This document shows, in pieces, positions 39,664-53,023 of a stretch of DNA of 64,000 nucleotides; position 1 is the first letter of the stretch, and each line of letters begins with the position of its first letter. The stretch is taken from positions 4,287,001 through 4,351,000 of the forward strand of contig NC_010571.1 in NCBI RefSeq assembly GCF_000019965.1, given 5' to 3'. The notes beneath the pieces were generated by a model that ran no database searches, was not told the origin of the DNA, and was given only the letters and a program-made list of their open reading frames with translations. Source of the stretch: Opitutus terrae PB90-1 (GTDB lineage Bacteria > Verrucomicrobiota > Verrucomicrobiia > Opitutales > Opitutaceae). A program made the translations under genes and the position numbers.

Positions 39664-41823
39664 TTACGCGTTCGCCGGTTCGAGCCGCTCGAGCAGCAGG
39701 TCGAGCACGCGGTCGGTCGACTTCGGGATCACCGTGCCGGGCCCGAAGATCGCGCTGGCACCGTTCGCGAGCAGGAAGTCGTAATCCTGCGCGGGGATCA
39801 CGCCGCCGCACACGATCATGATGTCGTCGCGACCGGCCGCCTTCAGCGCGTCGCGCAGCGCCGGCAGCAGTGTCTTGTGACCCGCGGCGAGCGAGCTCAT
39901 CGCGACTACGTGCACGTCGTTCTCGACCGCCATCTTCGCCGCCTCTTCCGGCGTTTGGAAGAGCGGCCCAATGTCGACGTCGAAACCGAGGTCCGCCATC
40001 GCGGTCGACACCACCTTGGCACCGCGGTCGTGGCCGTCCTGCCCCAGCTTGGCGATCAGGATGCGCGGCCGGCGGCCCTCGCGTTGTTCGAACTGCGCGA
40101 CCTTGTCCTTGATCTTCTTCACGGCTTTGTCCTCCCCGAATTCCTGGCGGTACACGCCCGAGATCGAGCGAATCTGCGCCTGATAGCGTCCGAACACCGT
40201 CTCGAGCGCCGCGGAGATTTCGCCCAGCGTGGCCCGCGCCTGCGCGGCGGCGACGGCGAGTTCGAGCAGGTTGCCCTGTCCGCTCTTGGCCGACGTCGTC
40301 AACGCGCCGAGCGCCGCCTGGCACTTCTGCTCATCGCGCGTCGCGCGGAGTTCCTTCAACCGCTTGATCTGCGCCTCGCGGACCGCGGTGTTGTCGACTT
40401 CGAGAATGTCGAGCGGCGCTTCCTTCTCGAGCCGGTATTTGTTGAGTCCGACGATCGTCTCCTTGCCGGCATCGATCCGGGCCTGACGACGCGCCGCGGC
40501 CTCTTCGATGCGGAGCTTCGGAATGCCCGCTTCGATCGCCTTGGTCATGCCGCCGAGCTTCTCGACCTCGGCGAGATGCTCGCGGGCCTTCGTGAGCAGC
40601 TCGTGCGTGAGCGCCTCGACGTAGTAGCTGCCGCCCCACGGATCGACGACCTGACAGATGCCGGTTTCCTGCTGGAGGTGCAGCTGCGTGTTGCGCGCGA
40701 TGCGCGCGGAGAAATCGGTCGGCAGCGCGATCGCCTCGTCGAGCGCGTTGGTGTGCAGCGACTGCGTGTGACCGCAGGCGGCCGCCAGCGCCTCGAGGCA
40801 AGTGCGCGCGACGTTGTTGAACGGATCCTGCTCGGTCAGCGACCAGCCGGACGTCTGCGAATGCGTGCGCAGCGCGCGCGATTTCGGATTCTTCGGATTG
40901 AACTGGCCGACGATCTCCGACCAGAGCGTGCGCGCGGCGCGCATCTTCGCGACTTCCATGAAGAAGTTCTTGCCGATCGCCCAGAAGAACGAGAGCCGCG
41001 GCGCGAACGCGTCGATGCCCAGCCCCGCCTTCACCCCGGTACGCAGGTATTCGAGACCGTCGGCCAGCGTGTAGGCCAGCTCGAGGTCCGCCGTGGCTCC
41101 GGCCTCCTGCATGTGATAACCGGAGATCGAGATGGAGTTGAACTTCGGCATCTTCGTCGAGGTGTAGGCGAAGATGTCGGCGATGATCCTCATCGAGGGA
41201 GTCGGCGGATAGATGTAGGTGTTCCGCACCATGAACTCCTTCAGGATGTCGTTCTGGATCGTGCCTGCGAGTTCCTCGAGTTTCGCGCCCTGTTCGAGGG
41301 CGGCGCAGATGTAGAACGCCATCACCGGCAGCACCGCGCCGTTCATCGTCATCGACACCGAAACCTTGTTCAGCGGGATGTCCTTGAACAGCGTCTGCAT
41401 GTCGAGGATCGAGTCGATCGCCACGCCGGCCTTGCCGACGTCGCCGACGACACGCGGGTGATCGCTGTCATAGCCGCGGTGCGTCGCGAGATCGAACGCG
41501 ACGGACAAACCCGCCTGGCCGGCGGCGAGATTGCGCTTGTAGAAAGCGTTCGACTCCTCGGCGGTCGAGAACCCGGCGTACTGGCGCACGGTCCACGGCT
41601 TGCCGACATACATCGTCGCATACGGCCCGCGGGTGAACGGCGCGAGGCCAGGCATCGTGTCGAGTTCGCTCGTGGCGGGCAGATCCGCCGCGGTGTAGAC
41701 CGGTTTGACGGGAATATGCTCGTAGGTCATCGCCGGCTCGCCCTCCACCTTGGGGCCGCCCTTCGCGTCGAGCGACGCGAAGGAGTCGTAGGCGAGTTTG
41801 GTGAAATCAGGTAGGTTCTTCAT
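39664..41823 (-). CDS. mutB: Methylmalonyl-CoA mutase, large (catalytic) subunit
   Basis: A 719-residue adenosylcobalamin-dependent mutase subunit interconverting succinyl-CoA and (R)-methylmalonyl-CoA. The N-terminal TIM barrel includes the [24 protein letters not shown] region and [12 protein letters not shown]. The C-terminal cobalamin-binding domain has QDGHDRGAK with the lower-axial His598, the SSLAAGH serine loop and [10 protein letters not shown]. Start ATG at 41823 overlaps the stop of mutA by one base (TAATG), indicating coupling. A strong terminator follows. It is directed away from the divergent decarboxylase operon at 44142. Confidence 0.96.
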
Positions 41824-43943
41824 TACAGGGCTCCGATCTGCTTCTGAAACTTGGCCAGGAGTTCGTAGACGTTGGCGCGAATGTGGATGAACTCGTCGAC
41901 GCCCGCTTCGCGGAACGCGGCGACGACCGCCGCGTCGGCGGGCAGTCCGGCGAGCACCACGGTCGTCTTCGGCGCGGCGGCTTTCACCGCCTTGGCGAAC
42001 ACCGGCACGAGCGCCGGATACGTGTCATCGGTCGAGCATAGCACCGCGATCTTGGCGCCGGACGCCACCGCGGCCGCGGCCGCGCTTTCCGGCGTTTCGA
42101 AGCTTTGCTTGCCGATCGACTCGAAGCCGCCGACGGCAAAGAAGCCGGCCGAGAAATCGGCGCGGGCCTTGTGCTGCAGGACCGGCCCCATTTTCGCGAG
42201 GAAGACCTTCGGCCGCGCCCCGGTTTTCGCCGCGAACGCGGCGGAGGCCGCGCGGAGCTGTTCGAACGCCTCGGAGGCGCGGCGTGCGACCACCGGAGTG
42301 ATCGCGCCTTCGCCGGTCGCACTCGCCTGGGCCATCCGGCTCAATTCGCCCACGGTCGCGCCGTCGCGCGCCGCGGCCAGCGCGGCGTTGAACCGCGCAT
42401 TCCAATCGGAGATCGGCGCCGGCGACTGCGGCCCGCGGCGACGGGCCCGCACGCGCGCAACGAGCTCGGCGGCGCGTACGTTCGTATCCACGGAAACCGG
42501 CGCGAGCGGTTTCTCCTTCAGATTCGGGAACAGGTTCGTGCCCACCAACCCGAGCCGCCGTTTCGCGATCGCGTCCGCCTTTTCTCCGGCCGCTTTCGCG
42601 ACCAGTTGCTGCGGGTAGCCGGCGCGGAGCGCGGCGGTGAGCCCACCTTTGCTCTCGATGTCCTGGAACAGCGCCCACGCGTTGCGCGCGAGCGTGTCGG
42701 TGAGCTTTTCGACATACCATGAGCCGCCGGCGGGATCCGCGGTCTCGGCGAAGCTGAATTCCTCCGCGAGCAGCGTGTGCACGTTGCGCGCGATCCGGCG
42801 GGAAAACTCGTCCGAGCTTCCGGCCACCTCGTCGAACGGCGCGATGTGCAGGCTGTCGCAGCCGCCCAGCACCGCGGACAGCGCCTCGGTGGTGACTCGC
42901 AGCAGGTTGACGTGCGGGTCGAGCAGCGTCTTGTCCCAATGCCCGGTGACCGCGTGCACGCTCGCCCCGGCCGCCGTGTCGGCGGTCGCACCAAACGCCG
43001 TCACCACGCGCGTCCAGAGCGGACGGAAGGCGCGGAATTTCGCGATCTCGGTGAAGAACTGCGGCCCGATCGCGAACCGGAAGCTCATCCGCGTGGCGAC
43101 CGACTCGCTGCGCAAGCCATGCCGGTAAAGCGCGCGCAGGTACTCGGCCGCCGCGGCCAGCGCGAACGCCAGTTCCTGCGTCGCCGTGCCGCCGGCCTCG
43201 CCCCACATCGCCGCGTTGACTCCGATCGTGTGCAGCGCCGGCGCGTGATTGCCGGCCCACTTGGTCCACGCGGCCAGGTTGTCGTAGAGTTCCTCGAGCG
43301 TCGTCGGCAGTTCGCCGCGCGCGAGCCATTCGCCAAGCGGATCCGCACTCACGGCACCCGTCAGCCGGGTCCAGTCGACCCCGCGGATTTTGGCGTGCTG
43401 CAGATAGAGCGCCGCGATCGGCAGCGCGTCAGCTCCCGTCTGCACATTCACGGGCACAGCGGTGAGATCGACGTCCTTCAATGCCGTGTTGAGATCGTCC
43501 AGCGTGGCGAGCGAGACGCCGTCGACTCCGAGTTCCTCCGGCCGGGCGGCGTCGGGATCGCGACCGGCGCGGCTCGCCAGATCCGGTCGCAGCACGACCG
43601 CGTCCTGCCCGGCGGCCAAATCCTGCCGGATCGCGGTGTTGAACGCCTCAGCGTCCGAGGCGGTGGACTCCTGCGCGATACGCCAGATCTTGTCCTTGTA
43701 GCCTTGCTTCCGCGTGCCGCGCAGGAAGGGCGCGGCGCCCGGCGCGGTGCCCAGATGCGGCACTCCGGCGAGGTCTGCCCGCGTGTAGAGCGGCTGGAGG
43801 GAAATTCCCTCGAACGTCCGGGTGACGAACTTCTTCTCGAAGGACGCACCCTTCAGTTCGGCGTCCACGGTCGCACGCCAGCGCGCGAGCGCGGCCGCGA
43901 GGGGATCGGCAGAGACTTGGGATGACGTAGGTAGGTCAGGCAT
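41823..43943 (-). CDS. mutA: Methylmalonyl-CoA mutase, small (non-catalytic) subunit
   Basis: A 706-residue subunit homologous to MutB across the barrel ([66 protein letters not shown]) but with a C-terminal domain lacking the DxHxxG cobalamin motif, as expected for the non-catalytic subunit. It forms the alpha-beta heterodimer with MutB. The ATG at 43943 (MPDLPTSSQ) is chosen; an upstream in-frame start would add 44 unlikely residues. It is the first gene of the mutAB operon, with a 198-base divergent gap to the methylmalonyl-CoA epimerase gene. Confidence 0.93.
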
Positions 43944-44141: not shown

Positions 44142-44549
44142 ATGATCACCAAAATCGATCACCTCGGCATCGCCGTCCGGTCCTTGGACGAAACGATTCC
44201 GTATTACGAGAAATCTCTCGGGCTCAAGTGCGAGCACCGCGAAGAAGTGCCGTCGCAGAAGGTTCGCACGGCGTTCTTCACGGTCGGCGAAGTACACCTG
44301 GAACTGCTCGAGCCCACCTCGCCGGAAAGCCCGATTGCCAAGTTCATCGAGAAGAATGGCGAGGGCGTGCACCACGTCGCGTTCGCCACGACCGATATTC
44401 ACGCGCAGCTGAAGGGCGCGGCCGCCAACGGCGTCCGCCTCATCAACGAACAGCCTTTCGAAGGCGCCGCCGGCAAGCTCGTCGCCTTCCTTCACCCGAA
44501 ATCCACCCACGGCGTGCTGACCGAATTCTGCGCGCCGAAAACCAACTAA
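44142..44549 (+). CDS. mce: Methylmalonyl-CoA epimerase
   Basis: A 135-residue vicinal-oxygen-chelate-fold epimerase that converts (R)- and (S)-methylmalonyl-CoA. Metal ligands are suggested by DHLGIAVRSLD (His8), VHLELLEP, GVHHVAF and the Glu of GVLTEFC. It is complete and single-domain. The ATG at 44142 (MITKIDHLGIA) matches the family start. It heads the operon that continues with the carboxyltransferase 35 bases downstream, linking the mutase (R-isomer) to the decarboxylase/transcarboxylase (S-isomer). Confidence 0.93.
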   Translation: MITKIDHLGIAVRSLDETIPYYEKSLGLKCEHREEVPSQKVRTAFFTVGEVHLELLEPTSPESPIAKFIEKNGEGVHHVAFATTDIHAQLKGAAANGVRLINEQPFEGAAGKLVAFLHPKSTHGVLTEFCAPKTN

Positions 44550-44584
44550 GCGCCGCGCTGCGTCGCTTCCCTGTCTCTCCTCTC

Positions 44585-46138
44585 ATGGCCATCTCTCCCG
44601 CCCTCCTCAAACAGCTCGAGGAAAAACGCCAGGTCGCGTACGCGGCCGGCGGCGCCGCGAAGCTCGCGGAGCGCAAAAAGAAGGGCCTCCTGTCCGCTCG
44701 CGAGCGGCTCGAGGCGCTCTTCACGCCCGGCACGTTCATGGAATTCGGCCTGCATGCCCAGCATGCGTGCCACGATTTCGGTCTCGAAACCAAGTCCTTC
44801 CCCGGCGACGGCGTCATCACCGGCGTCGGCTATGTCGACGGCCGGCCCGTCGCGGCGTTTTCCCAGGACTTCACCGTCGGCGGCGGCGCGCTCGGCCGCA
44901 TCCATTCGAAGAAGATCAGCGATCTCTACGACTACGCGATGCAGTCCGGCATGCCCGTGATCGGCATCAACGACTCCGGTGGCGCGCGCATCCAAGAGGG
45001 CGATGAGTCGCTCTCCGGCTATGGCCAGGTGTTCTACCGCAACGTTCTCGCGTCCGGCGTCATTCCGCAGATTTCGATCATCGCGGGCTCCTGCGCCGGC
45101 GGCGCGGCGTATTCGCCCGCGCTGACCGACTTCCTCATCATGACCCGGAAGAACGCGCAGATGTTCATCTGCGGCCCCGAGGTCATCAAGGCGGCCACCG
45201 GGCAGGAAGCCTCGCTCAGCCAGTTCGCCACGGCGGAAGCGCATGCGAGCGTCAGCGGCAACGTGCATTTCATCGCCGAAAACGAAGGGGACGCGATTGC
45301 GATCACGAAAAAGCTCTTCTCGTTTCTGCCCTCGAACAACGTGATGGATCCGCCGCACCGGCCGACGCCGGTAATCTCGCTCGAGAGCGACGCGGCGATG
45401 AATGAGATCATCCCCGAGGATTCGAAAGCGCCGTTCGATGTACACCAGGTCATCGCCCGACTGGTGGACGACGCCGATTTCCTCGAGGTGCATCGCGACT
45501 TCGCCAAGAACCTCGTGGTCGGCTTCGCGCGCATCCAGGGTCTGGTCGCGGGTATCATCGCCAACAATCCCGCGGTGAAGGCCGGCACGCTCGACATCGA
45601 TTCGTCCGACAAGGGCGCGCGCTTCATCCGGTTCTGCAACGTCTTCAACATCCCGGTCGTCACGCTGGTCGACATTCCCGGCTTCATGCCCGGGCTCGCG
45701 CAGGAGCGCGGCGGCATCATCCGCCACGGCGCGAAGATGCTCTTCGCCTATGCCTCGGCCACGGTGCCGAAGATCACCGTGATCATGCGCAAGGCCTACG
45801 GTGGCGCCTACCTCGCCATGTGCAGCGCCGACATGGGCGCCGACATGGTGTTCGCCTGGCCTTCCGCCGAGATCGCCGTCATGGGCGCGGAAGGCGCGGT
45901 CAAGGTGCTCTTCAAAAAGGAAATTGCCGCCGCGTCCGACCCGAAGGCCAAGGAAAAGGAACTCGCCGCGGAATATCGGGAAAAGTTCGCCTCGCCCTAT
46001 GAAGCCGCCGCCAAGGCGATGGTCACCGATGTGATTGAACCCGCCCAAACCCGCGGCATGGTCGCGATGGCCCTGCGTAACACGCTCTCGAAGCGCGAAA
46101 CGCGCCCGCCGAAGAAGCACGGCAATATTCCTCTATGA
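44585..46138 (+). CDS. mmdA: Carboxyltransferase subunit: methylmalonyl-CoA decarboxylase alpha (MmdA)/transcarboxylase 12S type
   Basis: A 517-residue acyl-CoA carboxyltransferase of the MmdA/PccB/12S family. Two crotonase-like halves are present: MPVIGINDSGGARIQEGDESL with the SCAGGAAYSPALTDF oxyanion region, and IPVVTLVDIPGFMPGLAQERGGIIRHGAKML with AYGGAYLAMCS. It transfers CO2 between methylmalonyl-CoA and carboxybiotin. In the Na+-decarboxylase (Veillonella-type) it works with MmdB, C and D; in Propionibacterium transcarboxylase the homologous 12S subunit works with 5S and 1.3S. Here it is followed by both types of partner. Its stop overlaps the downstream OadG-like start by 4 bases. Confidence 0.9.
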   Translation: MAISPALLKQLEEKRQVAYAAGGAAKLAERKKKGLLSARERLEALFTPGTFMEFGLHAQHACHDFGLETKSFPGDGVITGVGYVDGRPVAAFSQDFTVGGGALGRIHSKKISDLYDYAMQSGMPVIGINDSGGARIQEGDESLSGYGQVFYRNVLASGVIPQISIIAGSCAGGAAYSPALTDFLIMTRKNAQMFICGPEVIKAATGQEASLSQFATAEAHASVSGNVHFIAENEGDAIAITKKLFSFLPSNNVMDPPHRPTPVISLESDAAMNEIIPEDSKAPFDVHQVIARLVDDADFLEVHRDFAKNLVVGFARIQGLVAGIIANNPAVKAGTLDIDSSDKGARFIRFCNVFNIPVVTLVDIPGFMPGLAQERGGIIRHGAKMLFAYASATVPKITVIMRKAYGGAYLAMCSADMGADMVFAWPSAEIAVMGAEGAVKVLFKKEIAAASDPKAKEKELAAEYREKFASPYEAAAKAMVTDVIEPAQTRGMVAMALRNTLSKRETRPPKKHGNIPL

Positions 46139-46509
46139 GTTCCCTCCTTCCCCTCTGCCTCGCGCAGGCTCACCGGCCGCTTTTCGGCAACCAGTGGCTC
46201 GCGCTGCTCGCCGTCCTCGCAGGTGTCGCGCTGCTGATGCTCGTGGTCGCACTGGTCGGCCGCTGGTTGGCCGCGACGCACCCCGATCCGGTTGTCGCGC
46301 CAAAGGCTGCCACGGTTTCCGCTCCGGCCGAAGCCGTCGAAACCACCCCGGAAACCCTCGCCATCATCGCCGCCGCGGTGGCGGCTCACCTCGGTGCGCA
46401 GGCGCGGATCACGTCGATCCGCACCGGCGGCCCGTCCGTCGAAACGCTCATGCAGCAATGGTCCCTCGAGGGCCGTCGCCAAATCTACTCCTCTCACCAA
46501 GTTCGCTAG
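46135..46509 (+). CDS. OadG/MmdD-like membrane anchor subunit (copy 1)
   Basis: A 124-residue protein with one N-terminal hydrophobic segment (about residues 18-45, WLALLAVLAGVALLMLVVAL), a Pro/Ala linker and the OadG-type end (LAIIAAAVAAHLG, RITSIRT and GRRQIYSSHQVR). This is the gamma/delta subunit that holds the carboxyltransferase and the beta pump together in OadG/MmdD-type decarboxylases. It overlaps mmdA by 4 bases and is followed by the biotin carrier. A second OadG-like gene occurs at 48746-49126. Confidence 0.87.
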   Translation: MSSLLPLCLAQAHRPLFGNQWLALLAVLAGVALLMLVVALVGRWLAATHPDPVVAPKAATVSAPAEAVETTPETLAIIAAAVAAHLGAQARITSIRTGGPSVETLMQQWSLEGRRQIYSSHQVR

Positions 46510-46524
46510 TTCCAGTTCGCTTCC

Positions 46525-46920
46525 ATGAAAAAGCTCCGCGTCACCATTGAAGGCAAAGTTTATGAAGTGCTCGTCGAGACGATCGACGATCCTTCCAAAC
46601 CTGCGCCGGCTCCCGTTTTTAGTTCCGCCGCTGCTCCTGCTCCGGCGCCCGTCAGCGCCGCTGCCACCGCTCCCGCGCCCGCCGCGCGTCCGGCAGCCGC
46701 GGGTGGCGCCGGCGATGTGCCCAGCCCGCTCGCCGGCAAAATCGTTTCCGTCGACGTCAAGGTCGGCGATTCTGTCCAGGAAGGCGCGCAGGTCGCGACG
46801 ATCGAAGCGATGAAGATGAACACCTACATCTTCGCGCCGAAAACCGGCAAAGTGGCCGAAATTCTCGTCACGCCGGGAGAAGGTGTCGAGGAAGGCACCG
46901 TCCTTCTGCGCATCGCCTGA
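46525..46920 (+). CDS. mmdC: Biotin carboxyl carrier protein (MmdC/1.3S-like)
   Basis: A 131-residue biotin carrier. An N-terminal segment (MKKLRVTIEGKVYEVLVE) and a long Ala/Pro hinge (about 24-62) precede the biotinyl domain with the biotinylated Lys97 in IEAMKMNT. This hinge layout is that of MmdC and of the 1.3S transcarboxylase subunit. It is the only free biotin carrier in the window, and the 5S-type gene at 51515 has no complete biotin domain, so it may serve both the Na+ pump and carboxyl transfer to pyruvate. It is encoded 15 bases after the first OadG-like gene. A biotin-protein ligase is encoded 3.8 kb downstream. Confidence 0.92.
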   Translation: MKKLRVTIEGKVYEVLVETIDDPSKPAPAPVFSSAAAPAPAPVSAAATAPAPAARPAAAGGAGDVPSPLAGKIVSVDVKVGDSVQEGAQVATIEAMKMNTYIFAPKTGKVAEILVTPGEGVEEGTVLLRIA

Positions 46921-46937
46921 TGTCCCGCCCACGTCGG

Positions 46938-46998
46938 GCGGCCGGCGTCTGCGTGGCCCGGGCATCCTGCCCACCACCACAGACGAGACGCCCGTGCC
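46938..46998. repeat. REPIN-like palindrome downstream of mmdC
   Basis: GGGC-ATCCT-GCCC (46960-46972) is followed by the opposed GAC-GAGAC-GCCC element (46983-46995) and preceded by CCGCCC/GGGCGG (46925-46930 with 46936-46941). The element sits in the gap between mmdC and the 42-aa small membrane gene. Confidence 0.5.
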
Positions 46999-47042
46999 AC
47001 TTCAGCCCATCGCCGCCCGCCTAAGGCTTACCCTCTTCGTTC

Positions 47043-47171
47043 ATGAAAACCGCCATTGTCAGTGCTCTCGTGATGTTCGGCGTCGCCATTGTTATTTCGA
47101 TGGGCGTCGCCGCGCTCATGAAGGTCCTCTTCCTTCTGATTCGCCGCATCAACGCGCCAAAAAAAGGCTGA
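47043..47171 (+). CDS. Small single-span membrane protein (42 aa) of the decarboxylase operon
   Basis: A 42-residue frame (MKTAIVSALVMFGVAIVI start; KVLFLLIRRINAPKKG end) with one long hydrophobic segment and a short basic tail, preceded by a gap of 122 bases after mmdC and followed by the first pump beta gene 36 bases later. The gene is too short for routine calling, but its composition (hydrophobic stretch plus positive C-terminal tail) is that of a small transmembrane subunit rather than a chance frame. It is not the MmdE epsilon subunit of Veillonella, which resembles the C-terminus of MmdD. A role as an accessory anchor of the Na+ pump is inferred from position. Confidence 0.55.
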   Translation: MKTAIVSALVMFGVAIVISMGVAALMKVLFLLIRRINAPKKG

Positions 47172-47207
47172 CGGCTTCGCGCCGATGCCTTCCTGCGTTT
47201 CCGCTCA

Positions 47208-48467
47208 ATGCATTTTCAAGATATCCTTAACATCTTTCAGGGGTTCACCTCCCTCTTTCAGTCTGATCTGCCCGTGCTGCTGGGCCGCGTCGGGCTGATG
47301 CTGCTCGGTATGCTTCTTGTCTATTTGGGCAAGAAAGGCGTGCTCGAGCCGCTGCTCATGATCCCGATGGGACTCGGCATGTGCGCGGTCAACGCCGGGG
47401 TGCTCTTCCTCGATCCGACCACGGCTGCGGCCGTGACGGAAGCGCCGGTCGCTTCCGGCGTACACACGACCGGTACGCTGATGATGGCGCCGCTGGTCCA
47501 GAACACCGACAACTTGATGTATATCCTGCAGGTGGATTTCCTGCAGCCGATCTACACGTTCGCGTTCAGCAACGGCCTGATCGCGTGCTTCGTCTTCATG
47601 GGCATCGGCGTGCTGCTCGACGTCGGCTTCGTGATCGCGCGGCCGTTCCTCAGCATGTTCCTCGCGCTTTGCGCCGAACTCGGCACGGTCGCGACTTTCC
47701 CGATCGCCGTGGCGATGGGGTTGAATTACGGCGAGGCCGCGTCGATCGCGATGGTCGGGGGCGCCGACGGTCCGATGGTGCTCTTCACCTCGCTCACGCT
47801 GGCGAAAGACCTCTTCGTTCCCATTACGGTAGTCGCCTACTTGTATCTCGGCTTGTGTTACGGCGGCTATCCTTACCTCATCCGCGCGCTCGTTCCCGCA
47901 AAGCTCCGCGGCCTCAAGATGCCGGCCAAAGCGCCCGCGAAGATCACCTCGGATGAGAAACTCGCGTTCGCGGTCATCGGCAGCACGGTGCTCTGCCTGC
48001 TGTTCCCTTCCGCCGCGCCGCTGTTCCTGTCGCTGTTCGTCGGCGTCGCCGTGCGCGAGGCCGGCCTGCAATACTTCATCAACTTCATCGATGGCCCGTT
48101 GCTCTACGGTTCCACGATGTTCCTCGGGCTGTTGCTCGGCGTGCTCTGCGAAGCCTCGACGATCCTAAACCCGAAGGTGCTGATCCTGCTCGTACTCGGC
48201 ATCCTCGCGCTGCTGCTGTCCGGCATCGGCGGGCTCATCGGCGGCTATCTCGCGTATTTCTTCAGCGGCCGGAAGATCAATCCAGTGATCGGCATCGCCG
48301 GCGTCAGCTGCGTGCCGTCCAACGCCAAGGTGGCGCAGAAGGAAGTGTTCAAGGCGCGTCCGGACTCGATCATCCTGCCCGAAGCGCTCGGCGCCAACAT
48401 CAGCGGTGTCATCACCACCGCGATTCTCACGGGCATCTACGTGACGCTCGTGCCGCTCATCAAGTGA
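47208..48467 (+). CDS. Na+-translocating decarboxylase beta subunit (copy 1, GcdB/GGADGPM type)
   Basis: A 419-residue polytopic membrane protein of the OadB/MmdB/GcdB family, with the pump motif GGADGPM (184-190, conserved Asp187) and about nine to eleven membrane segments. Residues SNGLIACFVFMGIGVLLDVGFV and AGVSCVPSN also belong to the family signature. OadB and MmdB normally read GGADGPT; the Met variant resembles glutaconyl-CoA decarboxylase GcdB-type subunits. It couples decarboxylation of carboxybiotin to Na+ export. A second, diverged beta subunit lies at 49138-50388. Start ATG at 47208. Translation coupling to the next gene: TGATG at 48465-48469. Confidence 0.88.
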   Translation: MHFQDILNIFQGFTSLFQSDLPVLLGRVGLMLLGMLLVYLGKKGVLEPLLMIPMGLGMCAVNAGVLFLDPTTAAAVTEAPVASGVHTTGTLMMAPLVQNTDNLMYILQVDFLQPIYTFAFSNGLIACFVFMGIGVLLDVGFVIARPFLSMFLALCAELGTVATFPIAVAMGLNYGEAASIAMVGGADGPMVLFTSLTLAKDLFVPITVVAYLYLGLCYGGYPYLIRALVPAKLRGLKMPAKAPAKITSDEKLAFAVIGSTVLCLLFPSAAPLFLSLFVGVAVREAGLQYFINFIDGPLLYGSTMFLGLLLGVLCEASTILNPKVLILLVLGILALLLSGIGGLIGGYLAYFFSGRKINPVIGIAGVSCVPSNAKVAQKEVFKARPDSIILPEALGANISGVITTAILTGIYVTLVPLIK

Positions 48468-48712
48468 TGAAAAACGTCGCCGCCAACCTGCGTCCCTGGA
48501 TCGCTGGTGTTCTCACCGCGTTCCTCGGCGTGGCGTTGGCGCGCGTCGTCGCCCCATCGTTCGAGGGCAATCTCCGGATTTACACCACGGTCGCTGGCCA
48601 GCTCCTGGCCCTGACCGGTCTTCTCATCCTCTGTCTCGGCATTCGCCGGCGGATCAAACACGCCGTCAGCGCAGGAGCCACTGACCACTCGAATTCGAAC
48701 CCAACTAACTAG
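48467..48712 (+). CDS. Small membrane protein (81 aa) between the two beta subunits
   Basis: An 81-residue protein with two hydrophobic segments (WIAGVLTAFLGVALARVV and VAGQLLALTGLLILCLGI) and a basic, then Ser/Asn-rich C-terminal tail. The ATG at 48467 shares bases with the stop of the preceding beta subunit (TGATG), so it is translationally coupled, and the second OadG-like gene follows 33 bases later. I recognise no family. Its strict embedding in the operon suggests an accessory subunit of the pump. Confidence 0.65.
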   Translation: MKNVAANLRPWIAGVLTAFLGVALARVVAPSFEGNLRIYTTVAGQLLALTGLLILCLGIRRRIKHAVSAGATDHSNSNPTN

Positions 48713-48745
48713 CCCCAACTGCTCATCGCCCCAACCCCTGCTCCA

Positions 48746-49126
48746 ATGGCCTTAGTCCCCCCGGCCCCGCAACTGGCCACGCTGCCCGAATACCCCTCAT
48801 TCGGTGACTCCGTGGCTTTTCAGTTCAACGGACTCATCGTCGTCTTCATCGCGCTCGGCACGATCTGGGCGCTGATGGAAATAACCGGACGCCTGTTCCG
48901 ACGCGGTCAGCAGACCGCGGTGCTCCCTCCGACCAGCCGCCTCGGAACCTCGCCCGTCGCCAACGACGGACGGTTGCCTGGCGAAATCGTCGCCGCCATC
49001 GTCGCCGCCGTCGCCGCGGAAGTCGAACGGCCGCATCGGATCGCCGCCATCATGCCCGTCGAACTCACTGCCGACTGGGCCCGCGAAGGCCGCCGCGAGA
49101 TCTTCGCTTCCCACAAAACCCGCTGA
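48746..49126 (+). CDS. OadG-like membrane anchor subunit (copy 2)
   Basis: A 126-residue protein with a hydrophobic segment at about 28-47 (GLIVVFIALGTIWALM), a linker, then IVAAIVAAVAAEVERPHRIAAI and a GRREIFASHKTR end, which parallels GRRQIYSSHQVR of the first OadG-like protein. Both ends share the OadG C-terminal pattern, so this is a true paralogue. It precedes the second beta subunit by 11 bases, giving a second anchor-beta pair. Confidence 0.83.
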   Translation: MALVPPAPQLATLPEYPSFGDSVAFQFNGLIVVFIALGTIWALMEITGRLFRRGQQTAVLPPTSRLGTSPVANDGRLPGEIVAAIVAAVAAEVERPHRIAAIMPVELTADWAREGRREIFASHKTR

Positions 49127-49137
49127 TTTTCCCCGCC

Positions 49138-50388
49138 ATGCTCGACGGACTCCTCAGCTTTTTCCAAACGACGGGTTTTCAGGCCATCACGTGGCAGATG
49201 CTGGTCATGTGGGCGATCGCCGCCGCGCTGCTCTACCTCGCGATTGCGAAAGGCTTCGAGCCGCTCCTGCTCGTCCCGATCGCCTTCGGCGCCTTGGTCG
49301 CGAATCTGCCCACCCGCGGCGTCATTACCACCGATCGCCTCGCCGACGGCACTAGCCAGTCAGCAGTGTTCCGGATCGAGGCGCAGGTATTGCCCGAACC
49401 CACCTCGCCTCCGGCGACAGATGAGTCTTCCGAGAAACTCAAGCTCCGCGTCGAACGCGTGGAGGGCGGCCTTTACGATTTCATCTCCCAAGGCGTGAAG
49501 CTCGAGCTCTTCCCGCCGCTCATCTTCCTCGGCGTCGGCGCGCTCACTGACTTCGGCCCGTTGATCGCGATGCCGCGCACGCTCCTGCTCGGTGCCGCCG
49601 CCCAGCTCGGCCTCTTCATCACCTTCATGGGCGCCAACCTGCTCGGGTTCACCTCCAAGCAGTCGGCGTCCATCGGCATCATCGGCGGCGCGGATGGACC
49701 GACCGCGATCTTCCTTTCGAACAAGCTCGCGCCGGAATTGCTCGGCGCCATCGCCGTCGCCGCCTACAGCTACATGTCGCTCGTCCCGTTGATTCAGCCG
49801 CCGATCATGCGGCTGCTCACCACGAAGAAGGAGCGCGTGATCCGGATGAAATCGCTGCGCAAGGTCTCGAAGCTCGAGAAGCTCGTCTTCGCGATCGTCG
49901 TCATGATCATCTGCATCCTCCTCGTGCCGGACGCCTCCGCGCTGATCGCGATGCTGATGCTCGGCAACTTTCTCCGCGAATGTGGCGCCACCGAGCGGCT
50001 GGTGAAATCGGCCCAAAACGAGATCATCAACGTGCTGACGATCTTCCTCGGCACGAGCGTGGGTCTGACCATGCAGGCGGAGACCTTCCTCGCTCCCGCC
50101 ACGATCAAGATCATCGTCTTGGGTGTGGTCGCGTTCGGGTTCTCCACCGCCGGCGGCATCCTCGGGGCCAAGATCATGAACTGGCTCTCGCCGCACAACC
50201 CGGTGAATCCGCTGATCGGCTCCGCCGGCGTCTCCGCCGTGCCCATGGCTGCCCGGGTCTCGCACAACGAAGGCCAGCGCTACGACTCCAGCAATTACCT
50301 GCTCATGCACGCCATGGGCCCGAACGTCGCCGGGGTGATTGGCACCGCCGTCGCCGCCGGCTACTTCATTTCCACGCTGGGGCACTGA
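49138..50388 (+). CDS. Na+-translocating decarboxylase beta subunit (copy 2, OadB/MmdB type)
   Basis: A 416-residue OadB/MmdB-family pump subunit with the classical GGADGPT motif (183-189; Asp186) and GSAGVSAVPMAARVSH near the C-terminal helix. Residues about 62-112 form a soluble insert (Glu/Pro/Ser-rich) not present in copy 1, between membrane segments I and II. About nine membrane segments are evident. It belongs with the OadG-like protein encoded 11 bases upstream. Two different beta subunits in one operon with a single carboxyltransferase gene are unusual. Confidence 0.9.
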   Translation: MLDGLLSFFQTTGFQAITWQMLVMWAIAAALLYLAIAKGFEPLLLVPIAFGALVANLPTRGVITTDRLADGTSQSAVFRIEAQVLPEPTSPPATDESSEKLKLRVERVEGGLYDFISQGVKLELFPPLIFLGVGALTDFGPLIAMPRTLLLGAAAQLGLFITFMGANLLGFTSKQSASIGIIGGADGPTAIFLSNKLAPELLGAIAVAAYSYMSLVPLIQPPIMRLLTTKKERVIRMKSLRKVSKLEKLVFAIVVMIICILLVPDASALIAMLMLGNFLRECGATERLVKSAQNEIINVLTIFLGTSVGLTMQAETFLAPATIKIIVLGVVAFGFSTAGGILGAKIMNWLSPHNPVNPLIGSAGVSAVPMAARVSHNEGQRYDSSNYLLMHAMGPNVAGVIGTAVAAGYFISTLGH

Positions 50389-50723
50389 TTGCGATGTAGG
50401 GCGGAGTCTCCCTACCCCGCCGGGCCGTGCGCACAACAACGGCATCAGGATCGCTGGATCAGGGATCCTGCCCTGCAGGAGCCGCGTTGAGTGTGCTCGC
50501 GTGTGCCAAAGTAGCGCTTTCGGGACACCGCGCTCCACCTGCGAGCGCAGGCAGCCACGGTCCGGACCGCGGTCCATCGTTTCGGCGCGCGAAACGAGCC
50601 CCGGCAAAGCGACGTGACTGGCGGCCTCCTCCGCGTTTCTTGCCGTGCTCGCCGATACCGCGCAGGAATTGCCAAATCCTGCGCAGCGCCCCCGATGCGC
50701 CACTGTTAGCCTAGTGCACTCCC
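50389..50723. other. Intergenic region between the Na+ pump operon and birA
   Basis: 335 bases without a credible gene. It begins with a GTAGGGC-type palindrome (50397-50424: GTAGGGCGGAGTC, CCTACCCCGCC) like those elsewhere. The rest shows no U-tract terminator, riboswitch or tRNA. The birA promoter may lie in its final 100 bases. Confidence 0.35.
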
Positions 50724-51494
50724 ATGAGCCCGCTTGCGTCCCATTCGCCCGAGCTGACGACCACGTCAGCCGACGGATGGACGCTGCATGTGGCCGACGA
50801 GATCGACTCCACGAACAACGCCGCCCGGCACCTGCCCGCGTGGCACGCGCTGCGCGCCCGGCTGCAAACCGCCGGCCGCGGCCGCACCGGACGCGCGTGG
50901 GTGTCGGATGACGGCGGCCTCTGGATCTCCGCCGTGCTGCCCTGTCCGGGCGATCGTGCGCCGTGGTCCATCCTTCCGCTGGCGGCAGGTTGGGCGATCA
51001 TCCAGGCGCTGCAGGAGTTCGGGGCGCGTGACCTCCGGTTGCGCTGGCCCAACGACATCATGGTGGGCGCGCGCAAGCTCGCCGGCATTCTCGTCGAACG
51101 CTATCACTCCGACACCGCCGTCATCGGGCTCGGGTTGAACGTGTTCAATCAACCCGCCACGGCGGATGCGACGCTCGCCGGCCAGACCGTGCAACTCGCC
51201 GACCTCGCGCCCGGCGCCTACACGCTCGACGACGTTGCGTCCTTGGTGCTGCGCTCGATCCGCACCGCGCACGCGCTCGTGCGCGACGGCCGCTTTTCCA
51301 GCATCGCCGATTCGCTGAATGCCGCCTGGTCGCACCCGCGTCCCGTCGAGATCACGCTGACCCAGCGCGCCGAACCGTTCACCGGCACCTTCCACGGCAT
51401 CGATGCCGCCGGCCGGCTGCGGCTCACCAGCGAGCGGCACGGCTCCGACTGCTACGACGCCGCCCAGGTTTCGCTGCTGCGCGAACTCGCGTAA
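50724..51494 (+). CDS. birA: Biotin--protein ligase
   Basis: A 256-residue BirA without the N-terminal DNA-binding domain (Class I type). It shows the biotin-binding GRGRTGRAW segment, RWPNDIMVGARKLAGILVE and a short SH3-like C-terminal domain. It attaches biotin to carrier lysines such as Lys97 of mmdC. The ATG at 50724 is chosen. It stands between the Na+ pump operon and the 5S-type carboxyltransferase gene (20 bases downstream), so biotinylation capacity is encoded exactly where a biotin carrier and its users are. No regulatory function is expected from this short form. Confidence 0.88.
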   Translation: MSPLASHSPELTTTSADGWTLHVADEIDSTNNAARHLPAWHALRARLQTAGRGRTGRAWVSDDGGLWISAVLPCPGDRAPWSILPLAAGWAIIQALQEFGARDLRLRWPNDIMVGARKLAGILVERYHSDTAVIGLGLNVFNQPATADATLAGQTVQLADLAPGAYTLDDVASLVLRSIRTAHALVRDGRFSSIADSLNAAWSHPRPVEITLTQRAEPFTGTFHGIDAAGRLRLTSERHGSDCYDAAQVSLLRELA

Positions 51495-51514
51495 CCCCTC
51501 CCCTCTTTACCCTC

Positions 51515-53023
51515 ATGTCGACCGTTCTGTTCAACAACACCGTCCTGCGCGACGGCCACCAATCGCTCGCGGCCACGCGTATGACGACCGCCCAAATGCT
51601 GCCCGCCGCGCCCATCCTCGACGAGATGGGCTTCGCCGGTCTCGAGACCTGGGGCGGAGCCACGATCGACTCGTGCCTGCGCTACCTGAACGAAAATCCG
51701 TTCGACCGGCTCCGCGCGCTGAAAAAGGCCGCGCCGAAGACCCCGCAGATCATGCTGCTGCGCGGGCAGAACATCGTCCAATACACCAGCTTCCCCGACG
51801 ACGTCGTCGAGGCGTTCGTCCGCGCCAACGCCGCTGCCGGCCAGGACATTTTCCGAATTTTCGACGCACTGAACGACGTGCGTAACCTGCGCACCGCGAT
51901 CAAGACCGTGCTCGCCTGTGGCAAGCACGCCCGCGGCGAGGTTTGCTACACGACGAGCCCGGTCCACACCGTCAAGGCCTTCGTCGAAATGGGCATCGAG
52001 CTGCGCGAGATGGGCTGCCACTCGATCGGCATCAAGGACATGTCCGGCGTCATCGCCCCGCGGGTCGCCTATGATATGGTGAAGGAGCTCAAGGCCCGCG
52101 TCGGGCTGCCCGTCACGCTGCACACCCACGATACCGCCGGGCTCGGCGCCGCCTCTTATCTCGCCGCGATCGACGCCGGGGTCGACGCCGTCGAGACGTC
52201 CATCGTGCCCTTCGCCAACGGCACGTCGCAGCCCGACACGCTGCGGATGCTCGCCTTGCTGGACGGTCACCCGCGCTGCCCGAAATTCGACACGAAGAAG
52301 CTGCAACAACTGCGTGAATACTTCACCGGCGTCTACAAGGAGCTCGAGAAGTTCACCTCGCCCGCCAACGAGCGCGTCGATTCCGACACGCTGATCTACC
52401 AGGTGCCCGGCGGCATGCTCTCCAATTTCCGGACGCAGCTCAAGGAGCAGAACATGTCCGACAAGTTCGAGCAGGTGATGGCCGAGATTCCCTACGTGCG
52501 CTCCTGCCTCGGCTGGATTCCGCTGGTCACACCGACGTCGCAGATCGTCGGCACGCAGGCGATGCTGAACGTGAAGTTCGGCCGCTGGACCAATTTCTCC
52601 CAGCCCGCGATGGACATCGCGCTGGGCAAATACGGCCGCACGCCCGGCCCGATCGACCCGTCGGTGCGCGAGCTCGCGATCAAGAAATCCGGCCAGCAGA
52701 CGGTCGAATGCCGCCCGGCCGATCTGCTCGCGCCGCGGATGTCGAAGCTGCGCGAGGAGCTCGCCGCCGGCGGTCTGCCGACCGACGATGAAGCCTGCGT
52801 GCTGCACGCGATGTTCCCGCGCGAGTTCGCCGCACTGCACAAGAAGTCCGCGGCTCCCGCCGCCGCTTCTGCGCCCGCCGCCGCTGCGGCCGCCCAGCCC
52901 GCGCCTGCCGCTGCTCCGGCCGTTGGCGCGCCGAGCGCACCGATGGCCCCCGGCCAGGTGCAGCACTTCGTGCTCACCGTCGGCGGCGTTCGCAAGACGG
53001 TGCAGGTGCAGGAAATTTCCTGA
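51515..53023 (+). CDS. OadA/transcarboxylase 5S-type carboxyltransferase lacking a biotin domain
   Basis: A 502-residue pyruvate/oxaloacetate carboxyltransferase. The TIM barrel has VLRDGHQSL (D13), the carbamylated Lys174 in IGIKDMSG, and HTHDTAG with metal ligands His203 and His205; the metal/CO2 site is complete. An OadA normally carries a C-terminal biotinyl domain with EAMKM, but this protein ends with an Ala/Pro linker (about 442-480) and QHFVLTVGGVRKTVQVQEIS, only the first strands of the biotinyl fold. Its length matches the Propionibacterium 5S subunit (about 505 aa). It would carboxylate pyruvate from the separate carrier (mmdC). A direct neighbour is birA. Confidence 0.86.
   Translation: MSTVLFNNTVLRDGHQSLAATRMTTAQMLPAAPILDEMGFAGLETWGGATIDSCLRYLNENPFDRLRALKKAAPKTPQIMLLRGQNIVQYTSFPDDVVEAFVRANAAAGQDIFRIFDALNDVRNLRTAIKTVLACGKHARGEVCYTTSPVHTVKAFVEMGIELREMGCHSIGIKDMSGVIAPRVAYDMVKELKARVGLPVTLHTHDTAGLGAASYLAAIDAGVDAVETSIVPFANGTSQPDTLRMLALLDGHPRCPKFDTKKLQQLREYFTGVYKELEKFTSPANERVDSDTLIYQVPGGMLSNFRTQLKEQNMSDKFEQVMAEIPYVRSCLGWIPLVTPTSQIVGTQAMLNVKFGRWTNFSQPAMDIALGKYGRTPGPIDPSVRELAIKKSGQQTVECRPADLLAPRMSKLREELAAGGLPTDDEACVLHAMFPREFAALHKKSAAPAAASAPAAAAAAQPAPAAAPAVGAPSAPMAPGQVQHFVLTVGGVRKTVQVQEIS

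Follow-up and report, generated by a model that had tools for sequence, protein, structure and literature searches.

Textbook accounts of propionate pathways feature a soluble transcarboxylase or a decarboxylase pump in the membrane, one or the other. The gene cluster we investigated is located at positions 44142-53023 of a 64,000-nucleotide stretch of the Opitutus terrae PB90-1 genome (hereafter the window; bases 4287001-4351000 of the single contig of 5,957,605 bp) and resembles both. It is similar to the Na+-pumping methylmalonyl-CoA decarboxylase (Mmd) of the Veillonella/Propionigenium type in containing MmdA, a biotin carrier, gamma/delta subunits with a transmembrane (TM) segment and a tail, and beta subunits with the residues of the Na+ site, but it differs from this pump in having two beta classes per MmdA and carrier, linked genes for a 5S-type carboxyltransferase and birA, and no epsilon gene that was seen. 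It is also similar to the Propionibacterium transcarboxylase (12S/1.3S/5S) with respect to the 12S-like MmdA, the free carrier and the 5S protein without a biotin domain; however, membrane beta and gamma subunits are encoded within the O. terrae cluster. We consider it probable, judging from the sequences, that the cluster encodes a methylmalonyl-CoA:pyruvate transcarboxylase core, the carboxybiotin of which can alternatively discharge into either of two Na+ pumps.

Two further enzymes provide points of comparison. One beta subunit of the cluster, betaM, is similar to GcdB/MadB, but no GcdA was found in O. terrae. The other, betaT, aligns with OadB of the Salmonella oxaloacetate decarboxylase (OAD; OadABG); however, the 5S protein lacks the biotin domain of OadA, and the O. 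terrae gamma tails are unlike those beside OadA in four loci. A gene table for Phascolarctobacterium faecium lists two consecutive mmd sets, with a separate carboxyltransferase, gamma-type gene and carrier gene for each beta (PMC7568257); two betas per run are found in both organisms, whereas MmdA and carrier are single in O. terrae. In Geobacter bemidjiensis, the 5S-type enzyme was proposed to be a transcarboxylase, and there is a separate OadA without pump subunits (PMC2996986); the glutaconyl-CoA system Gcd of C. symbiosum has two carrier kinds and one beta kind (PMC7145394). In searches of an open-access library, which does not cover subscription papers on O. terrae physiology, we found neither an account of a single MmdA and a single carrier combined with 5S and betas of two classes nor a description of this arrangement in Opitutaceae. 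Every part belongs to a known family, and the combination may be new.

An earlier note on this DNA described a gene run from the epimerase to the 5S protein. All genes it named are intact open reading frames (ORFs) on the plus strand with families matched by profiles, but it overlooked two hydrophobic ORFs of 42 and 82 amino acids (aa). The cluster reads as follows:

44142..44549 (+), methylmalonyl-CoA epimerase, TIGR03081 (152 bits, cut-off 115)
44585..46138 (+), mmdA, 12S-type carboxyltransferase, 517 aa, PF01039 (592 bits)
46135..46509 (+), gamma1 (OadG/MmdD-like), PF04277, one TM segment, tail WSLEGRRQIYSSHQVR
46525..46920 (+), biotin carrier, 131 aa, EAMKM, PF00364
47043..47171 (+), 42-aa hydrophobic single-TM ORF, betaM companion, no family match
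47208..48467 (+), betaM, beta subunit of the GcdB/MadB class, GGADGPM, OAD_beta
48464..48712 (+), 82-aa hydrophobic ORF, betaM companion, nothing over cut-off in the Pfam scan
48746..49126 (+), gamma2 (OadG/MmdD-like), PF04277, one TM segment, tail WAREGRREIFASHKTR
49138..50388 (+), betaT, beta subunit of the OadB/MmdB class, GGADGPT, TIGR01109 over cut-off
50724..51494 (+), birA, biotin-protein ligase, TIGR00121 over cut-off
51515..53023 (+), 5S-type carboxyltransferase, 502 aa, PF00682 (HMGL-like) and PF02436 (PYC_OADA)

MmdA scores 723 bits against the mmdA model TIGR01117, under its cut-off of 998.8, and the 12S subunit 1on3 is among its best relatives of known structure. The OAD_gamma scores of the two gammas are 32.7 and 32.1 bits (cut-off 27). 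The 5S protein aligns to 1rqb over residues 8-500, has no Biotin_lipoyl match in the Pfam scan, and contains IGIKDMSG at residue 171 and LHTHDT at 202, which we take to be the lysine and metal-histidine motifs. The genes are spaced by anything from 4-bp overlaps to 122 bp, except for 335 bp between betaT and birA.

In the mechanism we propose, MmdA would move the carboxyl group of (S)-methylmalonyl-CoA onto the single biotin carrier. The carboxylated carrier could then go to the 5S protein, where pyruvate would be carboxylated to oxaloacetate (the transcarboxylase exit), or to a membrane beta subunit, where CO2 would be released and Na+ exported (the decarboxylase exit). Two pump cassettes would thus operate on one core, gamma1 with the 42-aa ORF, betaM and the 82-aa ORF, and gamma2 with betaT. 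Physical sharing of the carrier, use of both exits, the direction of flux and any regulation would be predicted properties of this system. The transcarboxylase exit plausibly spares the cell the ATP cost of pyruvate carboxylase, and the pump exit plausibly conserves the decarboxylation energy when oxaloacetate has another source. If one carrier serves both, ATP-free oxaloacetate formation could be traded against Na+ export at one step; two Na+ per turnover is a value from OAD, not from this enzyme (PMC7274780).

The genome-wide inventory agrees with a single set of core genes. Among 11 matches to PF00364 at E <= 0.01, biotinyl motifs are found in three, the carrier of the cluster, pyruvate carboxylase and an AccB-like domain; three of the remaining matches are of the lipoyl type, and the other five, all weak at E 1.8e-4 or higher, showed no biotin motif. 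This makes the cluster carrier the only dedicated carrier found for the 5S protein, as the earlier note had it. A complete OadA elsewhere, which the note had named as a possible refutation, was likewise not found: besides the 5S protein, the PF02436 search recovered only a full-length pyruvate carboxylase that includes an EAMKM biotin domain. PF03977 recovered betaM and betaT only. Besides MmdA, the only protein of 12S size that it recovered, the PF01039 search gave two partial matches, which we read as AccD and AccA. The idea that betaM serves a GcdA was rejected, as this search found none in the genome.

The two betas belong to different classes, as had been claimed. They share 122 identical residues over 388 aligned positions, and in a quick tree of 77 betas, without bootstrap, with betas of 330 aa or less dropped and with a warning for long branches that meet, they are separated by a branch with full SH-aLRT support. 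The best model for betaM is MadB TIGR03136 (479 bits, under the cut-off of 596.9); betaT scores 489 bits against TIGR01109 (cut-off 190.6) and aligns to Salmonella OadB 6iva with 399 bits. According to work on Salmonella OadB, E40, D203, R304, N311, S382 and N412 are essential, with D203, S382 and N412 as proposed Na+ ligands (PMC7274780). In columns numbered by the OadB positions of 6iva, both betas of the window retain E40, D203, Y229, S382 and N412. Across an alignment of 42 betaT and 25 betaM sequences, D203, Y229, N373, G377 and S382 are retained in all 42 and all 25, and N412 in 42/42 betaT and 21/25 betaM; the position of OadB R389 is K in each of the 25 betaM. Outside the family, relatives of betaM with 55-66% identity were found in metagenome-assembled genomes labelled Fibrobacterota and Clostridia and in Sinanaerobacter, in a scan of named genomes that yielded six loci, two of them near relatives (L125 and L126, repeating L054 and L038) and four distant. 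The Sinanaerobacter beta (L129; 61% identical to betaM) lies near GcdA-like, etf-like and acyl-CoA-dehydrogenase-like genes, whose names were read from the sequence.

The ratio of nonsynonymous to synonymous substitution rates (dN/dS) between the window and other genomes with both betas in tandem is 0.14-0.25 for betaM, 0.10-0.23 for betaT and 0.13-0.24 for MmdA. The ratios are 0.26-0.54 for gamma1, 0.31-0.51 for gamma2 and 0.29-0.75 for the 82-aa ORF; for the 42-aa ORF they are 0.31-0.39 in four genomes and undefined in one. These comparisons cover five of the six other tandem genomes, with G579 left out, and dS is mostly 0.7-1.8 and partly saturated. Both betas are open frames and look maintained by purifying selection. 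Besides the window, 24 fetched stretches bear betaM; relatives of the 42-aa ORF were found in 18 of them, and relatives of the 82-aa ORF likewise in 18. In the clostridial loci L128-L130, too, betaM-type genes are directly preceded by a very small ORF that has one TM segment and resembles the 42-aa one, with weak matches of 16-20 bits. These look-alikes suggest that the 42-aa ORF may encode an overlooked subunit.

The gammas probably connect both pumps to the same core. A C-terminal tail of the form W..EGRR..(I)..SH..R is found in 16/16 gammas upstream of betaM and in 34/37 upstream of betaT. W..EGRR is likewise present in 9/9 gammas upstream of a GACDGPT type of beta (with the G620 locus counted twice), in the one upstream of a third type, in 18/18 gammas without a beta in the fetched stretch and in 3/3 unassigned ones. 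Inspection by eye did not show it in the candidate gammas of L035, L037, L049 and L050, which adjoin biotin-bearing OadA and represent two beta classes. This distribution indicates that the gamma tail follows MmdA and not the beta class. In Salmonella OAD, the C-terminal tail of gamma holds the alpha subunit (PMC7274780). By their common tail, gamma1 and gamma2 probably dock on the same MmdA.

Some gammas in the family (L105, L106, L082 and L103) have no TM segment but keep the MmdA-type tail, and are reminiscent of the Veillonella epsilon subunit. In L112 (3755-4439) two gammas stand in tandem, one with a TM segment (134 aa) and the other without (85 aa), a pairing similar to the delta and epsilon layout of Veillonella. 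A separate epsilon subunit is present in the Veillonella enzyme but is not universal. Within the O. terrae cluster we detected no separate epsilon gene; among the ten cluster proteins scanned, which did not include the 82-aa ORF, the MmdE model NF047904 matched only the two gammas, below cut-off, and the 42-aa ORF had no match.

We surveyed 200 Opitutaceae genomes, treating separate surveys as one set since their handles agree, although the handles without a match are not listed in full, with thresholds of E <= 1e-100 for 5S and E <= 1e-200 for MmdA. PF03977 was found in 67 genomes (in two of them, G516 and G566, the matches are weak or partial), 5S in 71, and MmdA in 69, always as a single copy. 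MmdA and 5S occur together in 65 genomes, 5S alone in 6, MmdA alone in 4 and neither in 125; beta and MmdA occur together in 57, with 10 and 12 genomes discordant. The 5S and MmdA genes share 24 of 63 fetched stretches, which are at most 20 kb each, come in some instances from other families of the order and include one locus twice. Genes in the fetched loci were labelled by phmmer with the window's own proteins, so unrelated genes are invisible. The earlier note had called the combination of Veillonella-type and Propionibacterium-type parts non-standard; given the 65 genomes with both MmdA and 5S, 12S/1.3S/5S genes together with decarboxylase parts are common in Opitutaceae, and the survey rules out the idea of a unique locus.

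The rarer feature is the tandem pump pair, with betaM and betaT about 2 kb apart in 7/200 genomes: that of the window, G483 from the same genus, G253, G606, G549, G579 and G505. All seven keep the order gamma1, carrier, 42-aa ORF, betaM, 82-aa ORF, gamma2, betaT, and since this order is found again in other genomes the cluster is beyond chance. The birA gene comes next in six of them, none being recognised in G606, and 5S is in the cluster or nearby on the same contig in five; G253 and G505 have it on a different contig. The mmdA gene of G483 is split across two frames, perhaps through an assembly error. Elsewhere the mmd locus contains betaM alone (L019, L048 and L054, for example) or betaT alone (L058-L060, L066-L069), and G091 has both in separate loci (L020, L021).

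A core that persists without a pump, mostly together with 5S, is in keeping with a transcarboxylase. In twelve MmdA genomes PF03977 found nothing, and ten of these have 5S (G393, G491, G496, G520, G521, G531, G540, G587, G609 and G623; 86-99% complete). Their MmdA is 73-80% identical to that of the window. The carrier adjoins MmdA in seven of the ten, and in G557, and was also seen in G393, G531 and G609; the contig of G623 ends after mmdA. In nine loci (L082, L098-L101 and L104-L107) spanning the genera g253, g248, g264, g8 and g4, the carrier or gamma leads on to birA and no beta intervenes; the contigs of L100 and L104 are short, and the genome of L104, G557, is 73% complete. Within genus g248, betaT occupies in G571 precisely the slot that is empty elsewhere (L071). 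Four beta-less genomes have lost the TM segment of gamma but retain its tail (L105, L106, L082 and L103, the slot of the last being cut by the contig end), and a hydrophobic gamma N-terminus remains in g248 and G609. The beta-less core loci suggest that MmdA, carrier and 5S form a core on which the pump turns over as a module. On a quick MmdA tree, without bootstrap and with mmdA fragments dropped, 55 rows were counted and gave 5 changes for the tandem, 8 for betaM presence and 9 for betaT presence; loci with contig ends (L103, L108, L110, L112, L116, L117 and L122) were excluded. Even within a genus the slot is variable: g6 has betaM, the tandem and the TerC type described below; g4 has the tandem, none and a third GGADGPM type; and g8 has betaM, the TerC type and none.

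Several observations weigh against a transcarboxylase core with two alternative pumps. Six 5S genomes have no full MmdA match and eight beta genomes have no 5S, although some genomes lacking an MmdA or 5S partner are incomplete assemblies or have weak beta matches. The beta-less genomes G488 and G636 (67% and 77% complete) are also without 5S at the threshold; G636 has a PF02436 fragment. The 5S gene is far from MmdA or on another contig in some genomes (G253, G505 and G126), and in the window the gap between betaT and birA means that birA and 5S may form a separate transcript. In G580, a second carrier accompanies gamma2 and betaT at a locus outside the mmd cluster (L123), while a gamma2-like gene without betaT follows its betaM cassette (L047); together these fit a loss or relocation of betaT, but G580 is a counter-example to the single carrier there. 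Finally, R304 is R in 42/42 betaT and 0/25 betaM, and N311 is N in 41/42 betaT and 6/25 betaM, both positions having an alignment gap nearby. Lacking R304 and usually N311 equivalents, betaM is regarded here as a pump-like beta whose chemistry may be different in part.

An alternative explanation is that the cluster encodes two separate pumps, with MmdA, gamma1 and betaM forming a methylmalonyl-CoA decarboxylase, and 5S, gamma2 and betaT an oxaloacetate decarboxylase that borrows the carrier. That betaT belongs to the OadB class and that 5S also scores 557 bits on oadA models would be in line with this; however, 5S does not reach the cut-off of oadA model TIGR01108 (756.5), betaT with gamma2 is the sole beta in loci where the 12S protein is MmdA (e.g., L022, L058-L060, L066-L069), and genomes without a detected beta still keep 5S. 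The main argument against this explanation, which we judge unlikely, is that gamma2 has the tail of MmdA loci, unlike the candidate gammas beside biotin-bearing OadA. One could also assume a pure decarboxylase locus to which 5S is a mere neighbour that uses another carrier, namely AccB or pyruvate carboxylase with its biotin domain. Both the AccB-like domain and pyruvate carboxylase are present in the genome, and 5S can be unlinked (e.g., G253 and G126), but the presence or absence of 5S and MmdA agrees in 190/200 genomes, the two share 24 of the 63 fetched stretches, and PF02436 frames of pyruvate carboxylase size exist in genomes without 5S (e.g., G114 and G066); we therefore hold this assumption to be very improbable. 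If the cluster instead operated mainly in reverse, propionyl-CoA would be carboxylated from oxaloacetate through 5S, or by Na+-driven carboxylation, for the use of propionate. The transcarboxylase reaction is reversible, which speaks for this possibility, whereas O. terrae is a propionate-forming fermenter, and the direction is not fixed by gene content. Reverse operation appears quite unlikely to us, even though the 5S-type enzyme of Geobacter bemidjiensis was proposed to work in this direction in propionate oxidation (PMC2996986).

A transcarboxylase core with alternative pump exits may be part of a broader pattern, which we put forward tentatively. The Opitutaceae might possess a plug-in energy hub, in which a fixed MmdA-carrier-5S core is combined with an operon slot for varied cassettes that pump Na+ or another ion (GcdB, OadB, tandem, TerC-linked GACDGPT, or none), and in O. 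terrae the carrier would partition three ways, between oxaloacetate and two pumps differing in ion or driving force. As to why there are two pumps, a difference in Na+ affinity, ion or driving force is our guess. The Opitutaceae offer natural comparisons by which the roles of gamma tail and beta class are testable, as the number of pumps on a nearly constant core ranges from none to two and a third kind of pump also occurs.

In the third cassette of the pump slot, a gamma is combined with a membrane protein of the TerC family (PF03741) and with a beta that has GACDGPT in place of GGADGPT. The TerC gene was noticed by inspecting a gap, and PF03741 was tested in three of the proteins. Cassettes of this type are located at:

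L109:8551-11309, TerC/GACDGPT cassette
L111:1351-4113, TerC/GACDGPT cassette
L113, TerC/GACDGPT cassette
L115, TerC/GACDGPT cassette
L124:5616-8337, TerC/GACDGPT cassette
L064:12217-15098, TerC/GACDGPT cassette, further downstream

The counts for this type (7 betas, 9 gammas) include the G620 locus twice (L077 and L124), and L114 has one such gene in a split frame. A further beta class of 376 aa has GGADGPM, with A at the position of S382 in 3/3 (L061, L018 and L074). In L061 (9581-10711) it occupies the mmd slot; around the copies in L018 and L074 we recognised none of the other cluster genes.

Stand-alone 5S proteins have a conserved C-terminal strand like RYALTVNGRRYEVTVEEL after an Ala/Pro linker (window 52960-53020), which by eye resembles the N-terminus of the biotin carrier. 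This tail could be left over from an OadA-like fusion, or it could serve in docking. In the interval between betaT and birA (50389-50723) no convincing gene, promoter or terminator was seen, and a scan of promoters and terminators was no better than shuffles, with 1 promoter-like site against a shuffle mean of 1.2, and 6 terminator-like sites against one of 7.2. Upstream of the epimerase and divergent from it lie two genes whose names were read from the sequence:

39664..41823 (-), mutB candidate, methylmalonyl-CoA mutase large subunit
41823..43943 (-), mutA candidate, methylmalonyl-CoA mutase small subunit, start chosen at MPDLPTSS

Homologues of mutB and mutA occupy a similar position in the loci of relatives.

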